From an uncultured Bacteroidota bacterium (lineage in GTDB: Bacteria > Bacteroidota > Bacteroidia > Flavobacteriales > Flavobacteriaceae), in NCBI GenBank assembly GCA_902517245.1, contig CABYBK010000006.1:1-44594 (forward strand): a stretch of 44,594 nt of DNA, given 5' to 3'. The notes below the pieces were generated by a model that was not told where the DNA came from, did no database searches, and was given only the letters and a program-made list of their open reading frames with translations. Positions 2,950-40,485 of this stretch are shown here, piece by piece. Numbering within the stretch: position 1 is the first letter of the stretch; every line of letters begins with the position of its first letter. The position numbers and the translations under genes were made by a program.

Positions 2950-4098
2950 ATGGACTACGTTGAAATTTTCGATACAACACTTCGAGATGGTGAACAGGTG
3001 CCTGGATGTAAATTAGATTCTGTAACTAAATTAATAATTGCAGAAAGACTAGATCAACTTGGTGTCGATGTATTAGAGGCAGGATTTCCTATCTCTAGCC
3101 CAGGAGATTTCAAAGCAGTGGAAGACATTTCTAAGTTAGTAAAAAATGCTCGCGTATGTGGATTGACTAGAGCTGTTAAAAAAGATATTGAAACTGCGGC
3201 TGAAGCATTAAAATCTGCTAAACGTTCTCGAATACACACTGGCATAGGAACCTCTGAAAATCATATACGCTATAAATTTAAATCATCTAAAGATGAAATT
3301 TTGGAACGAGCAGTTGCTGCAGTCAAATATGCAAAAAGTTTTGTTGAAGATGTAGAGTTCTATGCAGAAGATGCTGGTAGAACAGATAATGAGTTCCTAG
3401 CCAAAGTTTGTGAAGCTGTAATAAAAGTTGGAGCTACAGTTTTAAATATACCTGACACAACTGGGCATTGCCTTCCAGAAGAGTATGGTGCTAAAATGAA
3501 ATATCTCAAAGAAAATGTTAGTGGCATCCACAAGGCCAGACTCTCATGTCATTGCCATAACGACTTAGGACTTGCTACCGCAAACTCTATCGCAGGAGTC
3601 CAGCACGGTGCTAGACAGATTGAATGTACTATTAATGGCATAGGGGAACGGGCAGGTAATACATCACTTGAAGAGGTAGTAATGATTCTTCGTCAACACC
3701 CTAACTTAAAATTAGATACTCGAATAAATTCAAAAAAACTATATGGAATTAGTAAATTGGTATCTGAAAGTATGGCAATGCCAGTTCAACCTAATAAAGC
3801 AATTGTTGGTGCCAACGCATTTGCTCATTCCTCAGGAATTCATCAAGATGGTGTTATAAAAAAACGGGAAACTTATGAAATTATAGATCCGAGAGATGTT
3901 GGTGTAGATAAATCATCAATTATCCTTACAGCCAGAAGCGGAAGAGCTGCACTGGCTTATCGAGCCAAGAATATTGGCTATGAATTAGATAAATTACAAT
4001 TAGATAAAGTTTACGAGCAATTCTTAATTATGGCAGATCAAAAAAAAGAAATTCGAGATAAAGATTTACCAAAAATTATCAAAGCCAGTAATATTTAA
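2950..4098 (+). CDS. leuA: 2-isopropylmalate synthase-type enzyme, short form without C-terminal regulatory domain
   Basis: [58 protein letters not shown]; located in leu operon. Confidence 0.9.
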
Positions 4099-13015: not shown

Positions 13016-14179
13016 TTATTTTGGTGCAAATTGAATAATATTTTCAGCACTCACAGGATTATCACCTAATATCATTAAACGTTCAATGACGTTTCTAAGT
13101 TCTCGAATATTTCCTGTCCATGGGTATTTGTTGAGTTTTTCTAATGCTTCTTTTGTAAAAATCTTTTTTTCTATTCCTTGTTCTTTAGAAATCAAACTAA
13201 CAAAATATTCAGTTAGTATTGGAATATCTTGTTTTCTACTAGATAATGAAGGAACATGAATCATAATAACTGCTAGACGATGGTATAAATCTTCTCTAAA
13301 TCTTCCCTCTAAGATCTCTTGTTTTAAATCTTTATTTGTTGCTGCAATAACTCTCACGTCAACTGAAATATCTTTTTCATTACCAACACGTTGTATTTTT
13401 TGCTCTTGCAGAGCTCGTAAAACTTTGGCCTGCGCAGCTAAGCTCATATCAGCAATTTCGTCTAAAAAAAGTGTCCCCATATTTGCAGCTTCAAACTTTC
13501 CTGAACGATCTTTAGCTGCAGATGTAAATGCACCCTTAACATGTCCGAAAAGCTCACTCTCAATCAATTCAGAAGGTATAGCAGCACAATTTACTTCAAT
13601 AAAGTTATTTGAACTTCGATTACTTTGTTGATGAAGCTGATGTGCAACAAGTTCTTTTCCAGTTCCGTTTTCACCTGTTATTAAAATCCTAGCATCAGTA
13701 ATAGCAACTTTTGAAATCATTTCCCTCATTTCTTTTACAGCTTTACTCTCGCCAATTATCCTAAATTTTTGAGCTACTTCACGTTTTAGTTTTTTATTTT
13801 CATTACGTAATGATTTATTTTCTAATGCATGCCGAACTGCGGTAAGTAGACGGTTTAAGTCTGGTGGTTTGGAAATAAAATCATATGCTCCTAGCTTCAT
13901 TGCTTCGACTGCAGTCTCAACGTTTCCATGTCCGGTTAGCATTATAAATGGGGTACTAATTTTTTTACTATTAGCTTTTTGGAGCACTTCAATACCATCC
14001 ATGTTAGGCATTTTTATATCACAAAGAACCAAATCAAATGTCTCTTTTTCTAAAAGATTTAAACCTTTTTTACCATCTATAGCTTCTGTGATTTCATACT
14101 GTTGATCCTCTTCAGTTAATATGCGAACCAAAACTCTGCGAATTGGTTCCTCATCTTCTATTATTAATATTCGAATCAT
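13016..14179 (-). CDS. Receiver-AAA+ response regulator (NtrC-like), no C-terminal HTH, GAFTSA loop
   Basis: DLVLCDIKMPNMDG receiver Asp; Walker A ITGENGTGKEL; GTLFLDEIADM; GHVKGAFTSAAKDR; ends shortly after the AAA+ lid (RELRNVIERLMILGDNPVSAENIIQFAPK). Confidence 0.93.
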   Translation of the reverse strand: MIRILIIEDEEPIRRVLVRILTEEDQQYEITEAIDGKKGLNLLEKETFDLVLCDIKMPNMDGIEVLQKANSKKISTPFIMLTGHGNVETAVEAMKLGAYDFISKPPDLNRLLTAVRHALENKSLRNENKKLKREVAQKFRIIGESKAVKEMREMISKVAITDARILITGENGTGKELVAHQLHQQSNRSSNNFIEVNCAAIPSELIESELFGHVKGAFTSAAKDRSGKFEAANMGTLFLDEIADMSLAAQAKVLRALQEQKIQRVGNEKDISVDVRVIAATNKDLKQEILEGRFREDLYHRLAVIMIHVPSLSSRKQDIPILTEYFVSLISKEQGIEKKIFTKEALEKLNKYPWTGNIRELRNVIERLMILGDNPVSAENIIQFAPK

Positions 14180-20662: not shown

Positions 20663-20713
20663 TAAATCTCTTTTTTTAAATAATCCTCAATTTTGAATAT
20701 TTATTTTTATTAT

Positions 20714-20736
20714 ACCCTAAATTTTTAGGGGTTAAA
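20714..20736. promoter_or_regulatory. Candidate nitrogen operator, element 1 (CCCTA-N6-TAGGGGTTAA)
   Basis: Perfect palindrome CCCTAAA-TT-TTTAGGG at 20715-20730; the same CCCTA-N6-TAGGG geometry occurs at 33387-33402 upstream of glutamine synthetase. Confidence 0.6.
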
Positions 20737-20778
20737 ATTTTATTAATCCTAATTTTTGAAATTACAACCCCTTTTTTA

Positions 20779-20809
20779 TTGGGGGTATTTTTTTTATAAT
20801 ATATGTTTG
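20779..20809 (+). promoter_or_regulatory. Predicted Bacteroidetes promoter with embedded GGGGGT element 2
   Basis: TTG at 20779-20781, -7 box TATGTTTG at 20802-20809 (TAnnTTTG consensus), GGGGGT at 20781-20786. Confidence 0.55.
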
Positions 20810-20836
20810 CGAAAAATTAATCACTAACATATTATT

Positions 20837-21859
20837 ATGAAAAAATCAAATAAATTTTTTACGCGAGTGTTTATATGCACAATGATGACATTTACCGCTA
20901 TAAATGCCCAAGATACCGATGATAGTGTGCCACAGCCAACTTTTAATTTTAGTGGAACTGTTGACACTTATTTTAGAAGTAGTTTTACTGAAGATCCTGT
21001 TGCACCTGGCACTTCTTTTGCAAACCTTAATGGATTTTCACTAGGAATGGCAAACTTCATCGTTTCATACGAGGGAGAAAAATCAGGATTTGTAGCTGAT
21101 GTAGTTTTTGGTCCTAGAGGTTCTGATGCAGTATTTGGATCTGTTGGAAACTCTTCTGAGATGGTAAACCAATTATATGCATATTACAATATCGCAGAGG
21201 GTGTTACTATAACACTTGGTAACTTTAATACCTTTTTAGGTTATGAAGTTATTTCACCAGCTGCTAACTTTAATTATTCTACATCTTATATGTTTTCATA
21301 TGGTCCGTTCTCTCACACAGGAGCTAAAGTTGATTTCTCAATTTCTGAAGATGTATCCTTAATGATTGGTGTGTTTAATCAAACCGATCAAACTGAGGCT
21401 AACTATGACAGATATACAGCCTTTGGTGCTCAGCTAGGACTTTACGGTCAATATATTAACCTATTGGCGGGTGATGAGTACTTCCAGCTTGATTATACTG
21501 GAGGATTTGACTTATCTGATAGTTTCTTTTTAGGAATTAATGCTACAACAGCAACTTTAGCTGGAGATACTGGATTTGCTGGTATTGCTTTATACCCTCA
21601 ATTAACAACAAGTGATAGTTTTGCTATCGGTTTACGTGGAGAATTTTTCTCTGAAACAGACGGCTTTGGCGCATTAGTTTCAGACGGAGATGCTGATAAC
21701 TTTTCTCTTACTCTAACAGGAAGTTTTACTTCTGGAAACTTTATGTTTAAACCTGAATTAAGGTTAGACTCAGCATCCTCTGAAATATTTGCTATTTCTC
21801 CTACTGAAACATCTGAAAGGCTTACTTCGTTTGTTATGGCTATGATTTATACATTTTAA
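20837..21859 (+). CDS. Outer membrane beta-barrel (putative porin) co-located with glnK-amtB
   Basis: Signal peptide ending INAQ; FNFSGTVDTYFRSSF; alternating amphipathic strands; C-terminal aromatic (MIYTF). Confidence 0.88.
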   Translation: MKKSNKFFTRVFICTMMTFTAINAQDTDDSVPQPTFNFSGTVDTYFRSSFTEDPVAPGTSFANLNGFSLGMANFIVSYEGEKSGFVADVVFGPRGSDAVFGSVGNSSEMVNQLYAYYNIAEGVTITLGNFNTFLGYEVISPAANFNYSTSYMFSYGPFSHTGAKVDFSISEDVSLMIGVFNQTDQTEANYDRYTAFGAQLGLYGQYINLLAGDEYFQLDYTGGFDLSDSFFLGINATTATLAGDTGFAGIALYPQLTTSDSFAIGLRGEFFSETDGFGALVSDGDADNFSLTLTGSFTSGNFMFKPELRLDSASSEIFAISPTETSERLTSFVMAMIYTF

Positions 21860-21877: not shown

Positions 21878-22216
21878 ATGAAAAAAATTGAGGCAATAAT
21901 TCGAAAGTCAAAGTTTGACGATGTTAAAAAGTCCCTGCATAATGTTGAAGTAAATTTTTTCAGCTATTGGGATGTAACTGGAGTTGGAAATGAAAAACAG
22001 GGACACGTATATCGTGGTATCAGTTACAGCACCTCCGAAATTCAAAGACGTTTTTTGTCTATCGTAGTAAATGACGATTTTGTTCAACCTACAATAGATG
22101 CCATTATAAATTCTGCTGCAACTGACAAGGTGGGTGATGGTAAAATTTTCATCACCACTGTAGATGAAGCCTATCGAATTAGGACGGGCGAAAAAGGAGG
22201 AAATTCACTTAATTAA
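21878..22216 (+). CDS. glnK: P-II family nitrogen regulatory protein
   Basis: MKKIEAIIRKSKFDDVKKSL, T-loop-like GNEKQGHVYRGISY, GDGKIFITTVDEAYRIRTGEKG. Confidence 0.95.
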   Translation: MKKIEAIIRKSKFDDVKKSLHNVEVNFFSYWDVTGVGNEKQGHVYRGISYSTSEIQRRFLSIVVNDDFVQPTIDAIINSAATDKVGDGKIFITTVDEAYRIRTGEKGGNSLN

Positions 22217-22236: not shown

Positions 22237-23478
22237 ATGGAAAGTACTGCACTTTTTACTGCTAATAATGTATGGATGATGATCTGTACAGCACTTGTAT
22301 TTTTTATGCATTTAGGCTTCTCTTTTTTAGAGATTGGTCTTACACGTCAGAAGAATACAGTAAACATTTTATTTAAAAATTTCTTTGTTATCACCGCAGG
22401 GTTATTACTTTATGCTATAGGTGGTTTTAACTTAATGTATCCTGGATTTGAAGAAGGAGCTACTGGCTTTTTTAAATTTGCAGGATTTGGGATTGAGCCT
22501 CCAGAAGGGGGCATGACTTCTGCCTATGCTGATGGAGGTTACACCTGGTGGACCGATTTTCTTTTTCAAGGCATGTTTGCTGCCACTGCAGCAACAATAG
22601 TTTCAGGTGCTGTAGCTGAGAGAATTAAATTGAATAGCTTTATGCTTTTCACTATTGTATATGTTGGATTAGTATATCCAATTATAGGATCATGGAAATG
22701 GGGTGGTGGATTTTTAGATCAGTGGGGTTTTTACGATTTTGCAGGGTCTACCCTAGTTCATTCTGTAGGTGGATGGGCTGCACTAATTGCTGTATATTTT
22801 TTAGGAGCTCGAGTAGGTAAGTTTGGTTCTGATGGAAAACCTAAAGCAATTCCAGGACATAACATTCCGGTTGCTGCTGCTGGAGTATTAATACTTTGGT
22901 TAGGGTGGTTTGGATTTAATGGTGGCTCTGTATTATCTGCTGATCCTGAATTAACTTCTTTAACATTAGTAACAACTTGTCTTGCTGCAGCTGCTGGCGG
23001 AATAGCTTCAAGCATTGTTTCTAATATTTTATACAAAAATTTTGACTTAACTATGTTTATGAATGGCGTCTTGGGGGGGCTTGTTGGGATCACGGCTGGT
23101 GCTGATCTTATGAGTCCTATGGACGCCATATTTATTGGAATTATTGCTGGGGCTATTATTGTTTTTGGTGTTTCTCTGATAGACAGACTAAAGCTAGATG
23201 ACCCAGTTGGTGCAATTGCAGTCCATTTAATATGTGGAATTTGGGGAACATTAGCGGTAGGTGTTTTCGGAGATATGGCTGGAATAGATCAATTTATAAT
23301 CCAGTTAATTGGTGTGGGTATAGTTGGCGCGTTTTCAGTTATTACTTCTTTTATTATAATTATTACTATTAAAAAAACCATTGGTCTTCGTGTTGAAAAT
23401 GAGGAAGAAATAAAAGGTCTCGATCTGGCTGAACATGGAATGGATGCGTATGCAGATTTCCGATTAAACCAGCATTAA
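22237..23478 (+). CDS. amtB: Ammonium transporter
   Basis: GFSFLEIGLTRQKNTVNILFKN, STLVHSVGGWAALIA, GWFGFNGGS, HLICGIWGTLAVGVF. Confidence 0.97.
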   Translation: MESTALFTANNVWMMICTALVFFMHLGFSFLEIGLTRQKNTVNILFKNFFVITAGLLLYAIGGFNLMYPGFEEGATGFFKFAGFGIEPPEGGMTSAYADGGYTWWTDFLFQGMFAATAATIVSGAVAERIKLNSFMLFTIVYVGLVYPIIGSWKWGGGFLDQWGFYDFAGSTLVHSVGGWAALIAVYFLGARVGKFGSDGKPKAIPGHNIPVAAAGVLILWLGWFGFNGGSVLSADPELTSLTLVTTCLAAAAGGIASSIVSNILYKNFDLTMFMNGVLGGLVGITAGADLMSPMDAIFIGIIAGAIIVFGVSLIDRLKLDDPVGAIAVHLICGIWGTLAVGVFGDMAGIDQFIIQLIGVGIVGAFSVITSFIIIITIKKTIGLRVENEEEIKGLDLAEHGMDAYADFRLNQH

Positions 23479-31116: not shown

Positions 31117-33297
31117 TTAACGAATAAACAATAACTCTCTATATTTTGCGAGTGGCCAAATAGAATCATCAATTGTGAGCTCTAATTTATCACAGTGATC
31201 TCGTATTTCATTTAAATAAGGAATCACCATCTTGGCATAAGCCATAGCCTTTTTATTTACATCTTCAATTTTGTTTGCATTTTTTCGTGCTAACACCATT
31301 TGATCAACACCATTTATTATTTTTTTTATGTGATCAGATATTTCTTCTAAGATTATTAGTTGATCATTTGCATGAGATTTAAACTTTTCACCAAAAATTT
31401 CTTTAATACCCTTTACATTTTTAATCAATATATTTTGATATCTAATTGCTGTAGGAATAATATGATTTAATGACATATCACCTAATGTTCTAGATTCAAT
31501 CTGTATCTCTGATATATAAGACTGCATATCTACTTGACATCGTGCATGTAATTCAACAGAACTAAAAACTTTTAAATTTTCAAAAAGATCTACAGAAGAC
31601 TTATCAAGATAAGCAAGAAGTGACTCGGGTGTTAGTTTCATGTCTCTTTTATTGGTTTTTTCTGATGTATTTGCCTTCTTTTTCCCCTCATAATCTTCCA
31701 ATAAAAAATCTTTTATCTCGATAATTATTTCCCGTAAAATATTGAAAATAGCATCATCTTTTTTCATGTTTTTAGTATCTACTAAATTATCAACACCTTT
31801 CTTAAAATCTAGAAGTTGCTCTGTGACTATTGCGTTTAAAACTGTTATTGCTTTAGCAGAATTTGATTTTGATCCCACCGATCTGTATTCAAATTTATTT
31901 CCAGTGAACGCAAATGGAGAAGTACGATCGCTATCTGTATTGTCTAATAAAATTTCAGGAATTTTACCAATCACATTTAATTTTAAATCCGTTTTTTCTT
32001 TTGGCGACAACTTTCCCTTTGATACATTTTCTAAATCTTCAAGGACTTGAGTTAGATGTTTTCCAATAAAGATTGAGAGAATTGCCGTTGGAGCATCATT
32101 TTGACCTAATCGTAAATCATTACTTGCTGATACTGATGAAGCTCTTAATAATGCTTCATGTTTTAAGACAGCTGCAATTGAGTTAACAAAGAATGATAAA
32201 AATTGTAAATTACCCATAGGAGTCTTACTTGGACTCAAAAGGTTTATACCCGTATTAGTGTTCAATGACCAATTTGTATGCTTACCAGAACCATTAATAT
32301 GATGAAATGGTTTTTCATGTAAAAGAACTATAAAGTTATGCTTGTAGGCAACTTTATCCATCAAATCCATCAACAAAGCGTTATGATCAACCGCAATGTT
32401 TGCAGCTTCGAAAACAGATGCAATTTCATATTGACTTGGAGCTACTTCATTATGTTTTGTTTTAATTGGTATTCCCAGGAGTCTACACTCAAATTCTAGC
32501 TCATTCAGACAGATACTTACTCTGGAAGGTATTGAACCAAAATAATGATCACTAAATTGTTGGCCTTTAGAAGGCATGTGTCCCATTAGAGTTCTCCCTG
32601 TTAACATTAAATCTGGTCTTGTTTGAGCTAGTGCACGGTCAACAAGAAAAAATTCTTGCTCCCAGCCCATAGTTGCAGTGACTTTACTGATATTCTTGTC
32701 AAAAAAACGACAAACTTCTGTAGCTGCCTCGTCTAATTTTTCAAGTGATTTTAAAAGGGGGCTTTTATAATCCAATGCCACTCCGGTATATGAAACAAAA
32801 GTTGTTGGGATACATAGGGTTGTTTCATATAAAAAAGCTGGCGAGGATGGATCCCATGTAGAATATCCTCTTGCTTCAAAAGTATTTCTAATACCACTAT
32901 TTGAAAAGTTCGGAAAATCAGGGATTTGCTGGACCAACTGTTCTCCTTCAAATTTTTCAAGTTGATTTCCAGAATTATCTAAATCAAAAAAAGAATCGTG
33001 CTTTTCTGCCGTAGCACCAGTTAGTGGTTGAAACCAATGAGTAAAATGTGTAGCACCATTTGAAATTGCCCATGACTTCATCGCCGCTGCAATTTGGTCA
33101 GCAATAATTGAGCTTATAGGTATTTGCTTCTCAATAGATTGCTGCATCTGGTAAAATGTTTTCTCGCTTAAGTATTTTTGCAACTTAGTTCGATCAAATA
33201 CATGCTTAGCAAAATCTCTTGGATCAATCTTAATTTTTTTAACAAGATTTGGTTCTGAGGATAGTTTTTTAAGTATTTTTTTTCGTAGCGTTTGCAT
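31117..33297 (-). CDS. glnN: Type III glutamine synthetase
   Basis: 726 aa; THFTHWFQPLTG, GWEQEFFLVD, KHNEVAPSQYEIA, HEKPFHHINGSGKHTNWSLNT, RLGQNDAPTAILS. Confidence 0.95.
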   Translation of the reverse strand: MQTLRKKILKKLSSEPNLVKKIKIDPRDFAKHVFDRTKLQKYLSEKTFYQMQQSIEKQIPISSIIADQIAAAMKSWAISNGATHFTHWFQPLTGATAEKHDSFFDLDNSGNQLEKFEGEQLVQQIPDFPNFSNSGIRNTFEARGYSTWDPSSPAFLYETTLCIPTTFVSYTGVALDYKSPLLKSLEKLDEAATEVCRFFDKNISKVTATMGWEQEFFLVDRALAQTRPDLMLTGRTLMGHMPSKGQQFSDHYFGSIPSRVSICLNELEFECRLLGIPIKTKHNEVAPSQYEIASVFEAANIAVDHNALLMDLMDKVAYKHNFIVLLHEKPFHHINGSGKHTNWSLNTNTGINLLSPSKTPMGNLQFLSFFVNSIAAVLKHEALLRASSVSASNDLRLGQNDAPTAILSIFIGKHLTQVLEDLENVSKGKLSPKEKTDLKLNVIGKIPEILLDNTDSDRTSPFAFTGNKFEYRSVGSKSNSAKAITVLNAIVTEQLLDFKKGVDNLVDTKNMKKDDAIFNILREIIIEIKDFLLEDYEGKKKANTSEKTNKRDMKLTPESLLAYLDKSSVDLFENLKVFSSVELHARCQVDMQSYISEIQIESRTLGDMSLNHIIPTAIRYQNILIKNVKGIKEIFGEKFKSHANDQLIILEEISDHIKKIINGVDQMVLARKNANKIEDVNKKAMAYAKMVIPYLNEIRDHCDKLELTIDDSIWPLAKYRELLFIR

Positions 33298-33386
33298 AAA
33301 ATAACGAGATTATTAAGCTCTCAAAGATAGGAATTTTGAATATTTGTTTGTGATTATTAAAAATATTGAGATAAATTAAATTTTTG

Positions 33387-33407
33387 CCCTAAAAAAATAG
33401 GGGGTTA
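33387..33407. promoter_or_regulatory. Candidate nitrogen operator, element 1 (CCCTA-N6-TAGGGGGTTAA) between GSIII and GSII
   Basis: Same geometry as 20715-20735; lies between divergent glutamine synthetase genes. Confidence 0.6.
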
Positions 33408-33451
33408 ATAAAAATTAATTATTGTTAATTTCTTTATTGCATATCATAAAA

Positions 33452-33479
33452 GGGGGGTCATTTTAATCCATTATTTTAG
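33452..33479 (+). promoter_or_regulatory. Element 2 (GGGGGGT) followed by -7-like TATTTTAG upstream of GSII
   Basis: GGGGGGT at 33452-33458 and TATTTTAG at 33472-33479 (one mismatch to TAnnTTTG); spacing parallels the porin-glnK-amtB promoter. Confidence 0.45.
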
Positions 33480-33495
33480 TTAAAAATTTTTAATC

Positions 33496-34503
33496 ATGAG
33501 TAAAGCTAAACTTGAATATATATGGTTAGATGGTTATCAACCGACAGCTAACCTTAGAAGTAAAACTAAAATTGTAACTGATTTTAAAGGAACTTTAAAT
33601 GACTGCCCAATGTGGTCTTTTGATGGATCTTCAACACTTCAAGCAGAAGGAAATTCGTCTGACTGTTTATTGAAACCTGTAGCATTGTATCAGGATCCTG
33701 ATCGAAAAAATGGATGGCTAGTTATGACAGAGGTTTTAAATGCAGACGGAACCCCGCACATTTCTAATGGAAGAGCAACTATTGACGACGATGATAATGA
33801 CTTCTGGTTCGGTTTTGAACAAGAATACTTTTTGTGGGACCCAGAAACAAACCTTCCATTAGGCTTTCCGAGAGACCAAACTCCTCAAGGTCAGTTCTAT
33901 TGTTCTGTAGGTGCCAAAAATGCTTTTGGTCGTGAAATGATTGAAGAACATCTTGATCAATGCATTGAAGCTGGAATAAATGTTGAAGGAATAAATGCTG
34001 AGGTAGCCTCTGGACAGTGGGAGTATCAATGCTTTGCTCAGGGAGCAAAACTTGCTGGGGATGAGATGTGGATATCTCGATACCTATTAGAGCGGTTAGG
34101 TGAAAAGTATGGTTTAGCTATTGATTGGCACCCAAAACCTCTCGGTGATACTGATTGGAATGGCTCTGGTATGCATGCTAATTTCTCTAATGAAATCCTC
34201 CGAACATGTGGTTCTCAGGAAACTTACGAAAAGATTTGTGAAGCCTTTCGACCTGTTGTTAAAGAACATATAGAAGTATATGGAGCTCACAACGATCAGC
34301 GTCTAACAGGAAAACACGAGACTCAATCAATCGACGAATTCAGCTTTGGTATATCAGATCGAGGAGCTTCAATTAGGATCCCGATTTTAACTGTAGAGAA
34401 AGGATGGAAAGGTTGGCTAGAAGATAGAAGACCAGCTTCTAATGGAGATCCATACAAAATTGCCTCTCGAATAATAAAAACAGTTAAATCAGCTAAAATT
34501 TAG
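33496..34503 (+). CDS. Type II (eukaryote-like) glutamine synthetase
   Basis: YIWLDGYQPTANLRSKTKI, WSFDGSSTLQAEGNSSDCLLKPVALY, FGFEQEYFLWD, GKHETQSIDEFSFGISDRGASIRIP. Confidence 0.95.
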   Translation: MSKAKLEYIWLDGYQPTANLRSKTKIVTDFKGTLNDCPMWSFDGSSTLQAEGNSSDCLLKPVALYQDPDRKNGWLVMTEVLNADGTPHISNGRATIDDDDNDFWFGFEQEYFLWDPETNLPLGFPRDQTPQGQFYCSVGAKNAFGREMIEEHLDQCIEAGINVEGINAEVASGQWEYQCFAQGAKLAGDEMWISRYLLERLGEKYGLAIDWHPKPLGDTDWNGSGMHANFSNEILRTCGSQETYEKICEAFRPVVKEHIEVYGAHNDQRLTGKHETQSIDEFSFGISDRGASIRIPILTVEKGWKGWLEDRRPASNGDPYKIASRIIKTVKSAKI

Positions 34504-39681: not shown

Positions 39682-40065
39682 TTAATTTGAAATCTTCTTT
39701 TGTTTGACGAATTTATATACAAGTAAAATCCAACCAAAAATTAAAAAACATCCACCTATTGGGGTAATGGGACCTAGCCAGCTAAGTTCGATATTGACTA
39801 TCGACTGAATTGATAAAAGGAAAATACTAAAGGAAAAAAATATTGTGCCTACAATAAAAAAAATAGCAATCCATTTTTTTTCTTCAATTGATAATATTGA
39901 TAATATCAATAGTGCAAGTCCGTGATACATCATATACCTAAGACCTACATCAATCGATTCAATGGCTGTATAAGGAAGTATTTTTTTTAAAGCATGGCTA
40001 TTAAAAGCACCAATGATTACAGATAATAATGCAAATAATGCTCCAAATAACTTATCTATTTTCAC
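39682..40065 (-). CDS. DUF423-family membrane protein, copy 1
   Basis: GAFNSHALKKIL, RYMMYHGLALLIL, WLGPITPIGG. Confidence 0.88.
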   Translation of the reverse strand: MKIDKLFGALFALLSVIIGAFNSHALKKILPYTAIESIDVGLRYMMYHGLALLILSILSIEEKKWIAIFFIVGTIFFSFSIFLLSIQSIVNIELSWLGPITPIGGCFLIFGWILLVYKFVKQKKISN

Positions 40066-40116: not shown

Positions 40117-40485
40117 TTAATGAAAACCAGCTTTTATTAAAAATAAAATCCACCCAACGATAAGGAAAGTTCCTCCAATTGGTGTAATTGGGCCTAACCA
40201 TTTTAGTTTGATTTTAAAAAAAGATTGAAGCGATAGAAAGAAAATACTAAATGAAAAAAGTAATACTCCAAAAACAAAGAATATTGCAACCCATATTTTT
40301 TCTTCAAACGGCATAATAGCTAATATCAACAATGCTAGTCCATGATACATCATGTACCTAACTCCCACCTCAAAAGATTGTAATTCAGCTTCTGAAAGAG
40401 ATTTTCTTAGTGAATGAGCACCAAAAGCTCCTAGGATTACAGAAAACATAGTAAAAACAATCCCGAAAAACTCGATGAATTTCAT
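40117..40485 (-). CDS. DUF423-family membrane protein, copy 2
   Basis: GAFGAHSLRKSL, RYMMYHGLALLIL, WLGPITPIGGTFLI; paralogue of neighbouring gene. Confidence 0.9.
   Translation of the reverse strand: MKFIEFFGIVFTMFSVILGAFGAHSLRKSLSEAELQSFEVGVRYMMYHGLALLILAIMPFEEKIWVAIFFVFGVLLFSFSIFFLSLQSFFKIKLKWLGPITPIGGTFLIVGWILFLIKAGFH

Follow-up and report, generated by a model that had tools for sequence, protein, structure and literature searches.

The window analysed here, a stretch of 44,594 nucleotides from an uncultured bacterium of the Flavobacteriaceae (contig CABYBK010000006.1), contains two promoter regions of nitrogen assimilation with closely similar sequences: that of a porin-glnK-amtB operon, and the divergent region between two glutamine synthetase (GS) genes, GSIII and GSII. 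The question is whether this similarity marks a site of common control and, if so, how such a site may work. A sequence-only reading of the window had pointed to CCCTA-N6-TAGGG in both regions, followed by a run of G residues and by a -7-like box, and had proposed a shared two-part element. On re-reading, the coordinates of both CCCTA-N6-TAGGG sites, of the G-run boxes and of the -7-like boxes are all correct. The matched spacing is confirmed: from the start of CCCTA it is 66 bp (porin) and 65 bp (GS) to the G-run, and 87 bp and 85 bp, respectively, to the -7-like box. Both intergenic regions (20663–20836 and 33298–33495) have a G+C content of ~20%. The features are listed in Table 1.

Table 1. 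Positions of the dyads, promoter boxes and associated genes in the window
Feature	Position	Strand	Sequence, domain or remark
Dyad 1, porin-glnK-amtB promoter	20713..20734 (core 20715-20730)	+	TACCCTAAATTTTTAGGGGTTA; core CCCTAAATTTTTAGGG
Dyad 2, porin promoter	20767..20786	+	ACCCC-TTTTTTATT-GGGGGT; occupies -33 region
Sigma-A -7 box, porin promoter	20802..20809	+	TATGTTTG; TAnnTTTG consensus (PMC9723704)
BBP2/OmpL-like porin, operon gene 1	20837..21859	+	PF07642
GlnK (P-II)	21878..22216	+	PF00543
AmtB ammonium transporter, marine subtype	22237..23478	+	PF00909 / TIGR03644
GSIII glutamine synthetase, divergent from GSII	31117..33297	-	PF12437
-7 box of GSIII	33322..33329	-	TATCTTTG
Dyad 1, GSIII/GSII divergent region	33387..33402	+	CCCTAAAAAAATAGGG
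Spacer, GS region	33404..33436	+	GTTAATAAAAATTAATTATTGTTAATTTCTTTA; strongly conserved in genus alignments
GGGGGGT, right arm of degenerate second dyad, -33 position of GSII	33452..33458	+	
-7 box of GSII	33472..33479	+	TATTTTAG
GSII (GlnII-type glutamine synthetase)	33496..34503	+	NF041605

Both parts of the proposed element are real, but the second part in the porin promoter is not a separate element. GGGGGT (positions 20781–20786) forms the right-hand arm of another copy, and thus the element consists of two tandem copies of one dyad, ACCCCTA-N~6-TAGGGGT, each a palindrome of ~20 bp with an A/T-tract centre. Porin dyad 1 is centred ~79 bp before the -7 box, and the centre of dyad 2 follows that of dyad 1 by 54 bp. 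The position given for the “-7-like” box was right, but the box itself is an ordinary Flavobacteriaceae sigma-A -7 box of the type TAnnTTTG (PMC9723704).

The comparison of porin promoters took in ~25 genomes of the genus, which belongs to the MS024-2A-like marine Flavobacteriaceae. One of these (G017) displays two near-perfect copies, ACCCCTATTTTTATAGGGT and ACCCCTATTTTTTTAGGGG, at a distance of 53 bp. In the GS promoters the distal dyad is well kept, and usually just one arm of the proximal dyad remains: GGGGGGT, the right one, in this genus, and ACCCCC, the left one, in others. Genus alignments also show that a part of the spacer, ATAAAAAT, is common to the GS and porin promoters, and that GTTAATAAAAAT...ATTGTTAATTTCTTTA is conserved in the GS spacer within the genus.

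The geometry of the pair is nearly constant. Within the genus the spacing of the two dyads has a mean of 52.9 bp (sd 0.9) at the porin promoter and 53.6 bp (sd 1.3) at the GS promoter; in the family the corresponding values are 52.7 (sd 0.4) for GS, 53.1 (sd 0.6) for amtB and 53.1 bp (sd 0.5) for the gltB side. The distance from dyad 1 to the start of the -7 box is 76.5–78.8 bp with an sd below 0.9 in the four promoter sets that have more than two cases. A strong dyad, by a hand-made score with dinucleotide shuffles as control, is present in 61 of 84 promoter sequences (counting those of at least 100 bp), compared with 1.15 in the shuffles. In 52 of the 84 it is situated 74–82 bp upstream of a TAnnTTTG-type box (shuffles: mean 0.075, maximum 1); the sequences compared are related and not independent, and most genomes of the genus are incomplete metagenome-assembled genomes.

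The exact pattern CCCTA-N6-TAGGG occurs twice in the 1,477,012-base draft genome (62% complete), both times at the nitrogen promoters, and the reversed control pattern has no occurrence in the same sequence. In the window, the same two sites are the only matches with one mismatch or none, where shuffles give 0.41. The sequence-only reading had held a coincidence to be unlikely, and genome counts, shuffles and conservation across genera all lie far beyond chance. A fortuitous similarity in AT-rich intergenic DNA could draw on the one-mismatch counts in the draft genome, which are little above those of the control (20 forward, 13 control), relaxed genome-wide searches giving mostly background. 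Such an origin is nevertheless next to inconceivable: ~30 genera share the exact sites, their spacing and the distance to the -7 box, where the shuffles yield almost none, and the cross-genus conservation together with the shuffle controls refutes it.

Two things had been named as evidence against a real operator, namely equal frequency upstream of unrelated genes and lack of conservation at orthologous promoters, and both were looked at. In most genomes of the genus the orthologous promoters carry the element at the corresponding position. Of the 42 other Flavobacteriaceae genera examined, 29 have the arrangement, in the glnK-amtB/porin, GSIII/GSII or gltB/porin regions, and in 8 of those 29 it is present at both the GS and the amtB/gltB loci; in 13 of the 42 it was not found in the regions searched. 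As to specificity, 12 of 14 exact matches with an A/T-only core in 30 family genomes are at GSII/GSIII, glnK-amtB/porin or gltB promoters. Of the remaining two, the first precedes an alanine dehydrogenase-like gene and the second falls inside an open reading frame. Exact matches examined in the genus away from the nitrogen promoters are mostly within open reading frames, at near the control frequency. The proposal of an uncharacterised nitrogen-control operator of the Flavobacteriia is thus supported by both conservation and specificity, nitrogen control itself being what these sequences suggest. As far as sequence can establish it, the element comprises dyads at a fixed spacing and a fixed distance from the -7 box, is conserved, and is restricted to these genes.

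Several observations concern the range of the element. In ~12 genera gltB is divergent from a porin-amt-glnK-amtB operon, and the shared intergenic region bears the dyads, 300–400 bp from the gltB start; gltB of the present genus is without the element. G040, a genome from a different family of the order, has two dyads at a distance of 53.5 bp immediately in front of glnK, reaching as far as its start codon. This glnK-abutting pair (locus L129, ~3945–4022) is downstream of an apparent ordinary dyad and -7 box arrangement, and may possibly form a second layer of control. The match near the alanine dehydrogenase-like gene, CCCCTATTTTATTAGGG, is located ~230 bp upstream of it (L289, G199:C5:19363) and represents a possible further target. 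The element is degenerate or lost in six genomes of the genus (G016, G018, G021, G030, G033, G011). Among these genomes and the loci L101, L103 and L104 there are cases in which the CCC/GGG arms are degenerate although the -7 box and GTTAATAAAAAT of the spacer persist. Genomes with degenerate arms are a natural experiment for finding the regulator.

A palindrome in an intergenic region may also be formed by a transcription terminator, and the dyads could be read not as DNA operators but as terminators or RNA hairpins belonging to crcB, the gene upstream. Porin dyad 2 indeed scores as terminator-like, with a T-rich tail, and terminators may also account for a few of the sites in front of gltB. 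In the GS and gltB/porin regions, however, the genes are divergent, and therefore no transcript has to stop between them. The GS region yielded no terminator-like site, and a terminator needs neither a fixed 53-bp spacing nor a constant distance to the -7 box that follows. On these grounds the terminator reading, which we consider highly improbable, was rejected.

The arrangement is probably a nitrogen-assimilation operator that provides two sites for one homodimeric transcription factor, most likely an activator of sigma-A promoters. In Flavobacteriaceae the -7 box TAnnTTTG spans positions -12 to -5 (PMC9723704), and this places the predicted dyad centres near -38 and -91. The same predicted homodimer would bind each palindrome, the two sites being separated by 53 bp, or five helical turns, and hence on the same side of the helix. 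One dimer would be near -38, where the -33 element usually lies, and the other near -91. When nitrogen is short relative to carbon, the factor would activate porin-glnK-amtB, for ammonium uptake, and GSII, for assimilation, and perhaps also gltB in many relatives. With regard to the GS region, the distance of the dyad to the GSII -7 box is rigid, whereas that to the GSIII -7 box is 20–92 bp and varies between genera; the element is thus positioned for GSII. From the sequences we infer that one protein would act at both sites, that its action would be activation, and that nitrogen or carbon/nitrogen status would be the signal.

The main rival to an activator is a repressor at the same operator: a dimer over the -33 region would block RNA polymerase under nitrogen excess, cooperatively with the distal site. 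Dyad 2 does overlap the -33 region, a spacing of whole helical turns also suits cooperative repressors, and the G040 pair reaches the start codon of glnK, where repressors typically bind. Against this, the proximal dyad of the GS promoters has decayed to a half-site with the distal one intact, and the -33 TTG is mostly missing, being present in only 15 of 52 promoters, so that a simple unrepressed promoter would be weak. We regard repression as a doubtful, though not negligible, possibility. Activation is favoured because the -33 TTG is scarce, dyad 2 is there instead, and the best-kept dyad in the GS promoters is the distal one. In-phase palindromes, the proximal one over -33, followed by a -7 box and without a conserved -33 TTG, would have the look of a promoter activated by tandem dimers.

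Expression data from relatives bear on the activator reading. In Formosa sp. Hel1_33_131 a cluster of porin, Amt, P-II and glutamate synthase is strongly induced on glucose or laminarin as compared with peptone alone, and the porin reaches 10% riBAQ (PMC6246565). By analogy, this induction on sugars fits with an activator responding to carbon/nitrogen status. In Prevotella ruminicola, amtB and glnK transcripts are higher on non-limiting ammonium (PMC5552732), and for this reason the sign of control in Bacteroidota is not to be assumed.

Which protein might bind the dyads? The regions around the nitrogen loci (16–19 kb, 20 genera) show conservation of gltBD, porin, amt, glnK and an 860-aa protein that by eye resembles PEP carboxylase, and no widely conserved transcription factor was found in them. 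In a few genera GSII has BlaI/BlaR1-like genes beside it, and G093/G166 contain an AsnC-like gene. In the window, positions 13016–14179 on the minus strand encode an NtrC-like protein with a receiver and a sigma-54 AAA+ domain, adjoining an MscS-type channel gene. It was rejected as a candidate: a Pfam scan gives no C-terminal DNA-binding domain, and there is no sigma-54 site. The window also has two adjacent DUF423 genes (39682–40065 and 40117–40485, minus strand), apparently a tandem duplication.

An orphan NarL/BvgA-type response regulator is encoded between nadE and dnaG; the gene is conserved in Flavobacteriaceae, and its product is without a conserved phospho-acceptor residue. Its distribution agreed at first with that of the element. 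One orthologous copy is found in small genera that bear the element (G104, G108, G200) and in many MS024-2A genomes, and none in the small element-free genera G127, G065, G157 and G209. Some NarL-type relatives, e.g. GacA, bind palindromes with a comparable gap. A different picture emerged when the slot between dnaG and nadE was inspected across 30 genus genomes (loci L431–L460, that of the own genome being L450). The gene is absent from about one-third of the genus genomes examined, and is split between frames in four more (G007, G032, G036, G017). The genomes without it at this place include the own genome (G000) as well as G001, G029, G031, G004 and G008, all with intact dyads; G001 and G004 lack any other NarL-type regulator, and, conversely, G081 has the gene and no element at GS. 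Since the slot is empty in genomes with intact dyads, the protein is excluded as a general regulator, barring a copy in the unassembled portion of every one of these genomes, and a role for it is very unlikely.

The second candidate is a protein of the CRP/FNR family, NtcA-like in function, in a class II/III arrangement (sites near -41 and -93). CRP-type dyads are similar in size and gap to the 16-bp CCCTA-N6-TAGGG, and the 53-bp pair resembles tandem CRP promoters. One such gene is present in four of the MS024-2A genomes searched, and none in four small element-free genera. The element-bearing draft genomes G001 (89% complete) and G200, however, gave only weak matches to AsnC-like and ParB-like proteins, none was found in the own genome, which is incomplete, and the MS024-2A copy looks different in type from that of G104. 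Overall, the presence of CRP/FNR proteins does not match that of the element consistently, and a regulator of this family is unlikely.

Proteobacteria, Firmicutes, Actinobacteria and cyanobacteria all have well-known operators of nitrogen control. A search of open-access papers yielded neither a cis-element nor a regulator of ammonium assimilation for the Bacteroidota, though an earlier description may exist elsewhere. Flavobacteriaceae are leading degraders of algal blooms, and the coupling of their carbon use to nitrogen uptake therefore matters ecologically. In Bacteroidota the genes of ammonium assimilation do show a strong response to the supply of nitrogen or carbon (PMC5552732, PMC6246565). 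A site as precise and conserved as the present one brings the regulator within direct reach of DNA-affinity pulldown and allows its regulon to be predicted from sequence.

A comparison with known systems shows both likenesses and differences. The motif had been thought distinct from NtcA, GlnR/TnrA and sigma-54 sites, and this holds. In both intergenic regions there is no match to NtcA GTA-N8-TAC on either strand, and TnrA/GlnR TGTNA-N7-TNACA, actinobacterial GlnR GNNAC-N6-GNAAC, the NtrC site, sigma-54 GG-N10-GC (-24/-12), CRP TGTGA-N6-TCACA, FNR TTGA-N6-TCAA, and the GacA and NarL (7-2-7) consensus sites are likewise absent. The cyanobacterial NtcA boxes (CRP family) are alike in being dyads of CRP-like size near -40 at glnA, amt and glnB, in a nitrogen-status regulon; the present element differs by its outer CCC...GGG arms, its A/T-tract centre and its tandem dyads at a fixed 53 bp. 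TnrA/GlnR of Firmicutes and GlnR of Actinobacteria also use short, often paired dyads, at the glnRA and amtB-glnK promoters, but sequence and spacing differ and no such regulator was found. NtrC/sigma-54 promoters of Proteobacteria share the paired upstream sites at glnA and glnK-amtB, whereas the element has a sigma-A -7 box at a fixed distance. In Flavobacterium psychrophilum the sigma-54 regulon is described as one of envelope stress, gliding and exported proteins, and not of nitrogen assimilation (PMC9723704).

The arrangement most like the present one is that of tandem CRP sites in class II/III promoters, which are at -41.5 and -93.5. There too the dyads are ~53 bp apart with the proximal one over -33/-35, and the in-phase dyads at 53 bp, the fixed -7 distance and the lack of a consensus -33 element appear to conform to the geometry of a tandem class II/III activator; the motif differs, and probably the protein family as well. 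It may or may not be, with about equal likelihood, that in the Flavobacteriaceae, possibly in the wider order, ammonium uptake and GS-GOGAT are under a regulator outside the NtrC, NtcA, GlnR, TnrA, AmtR and NrpR systems, with the paired operator as its signature.
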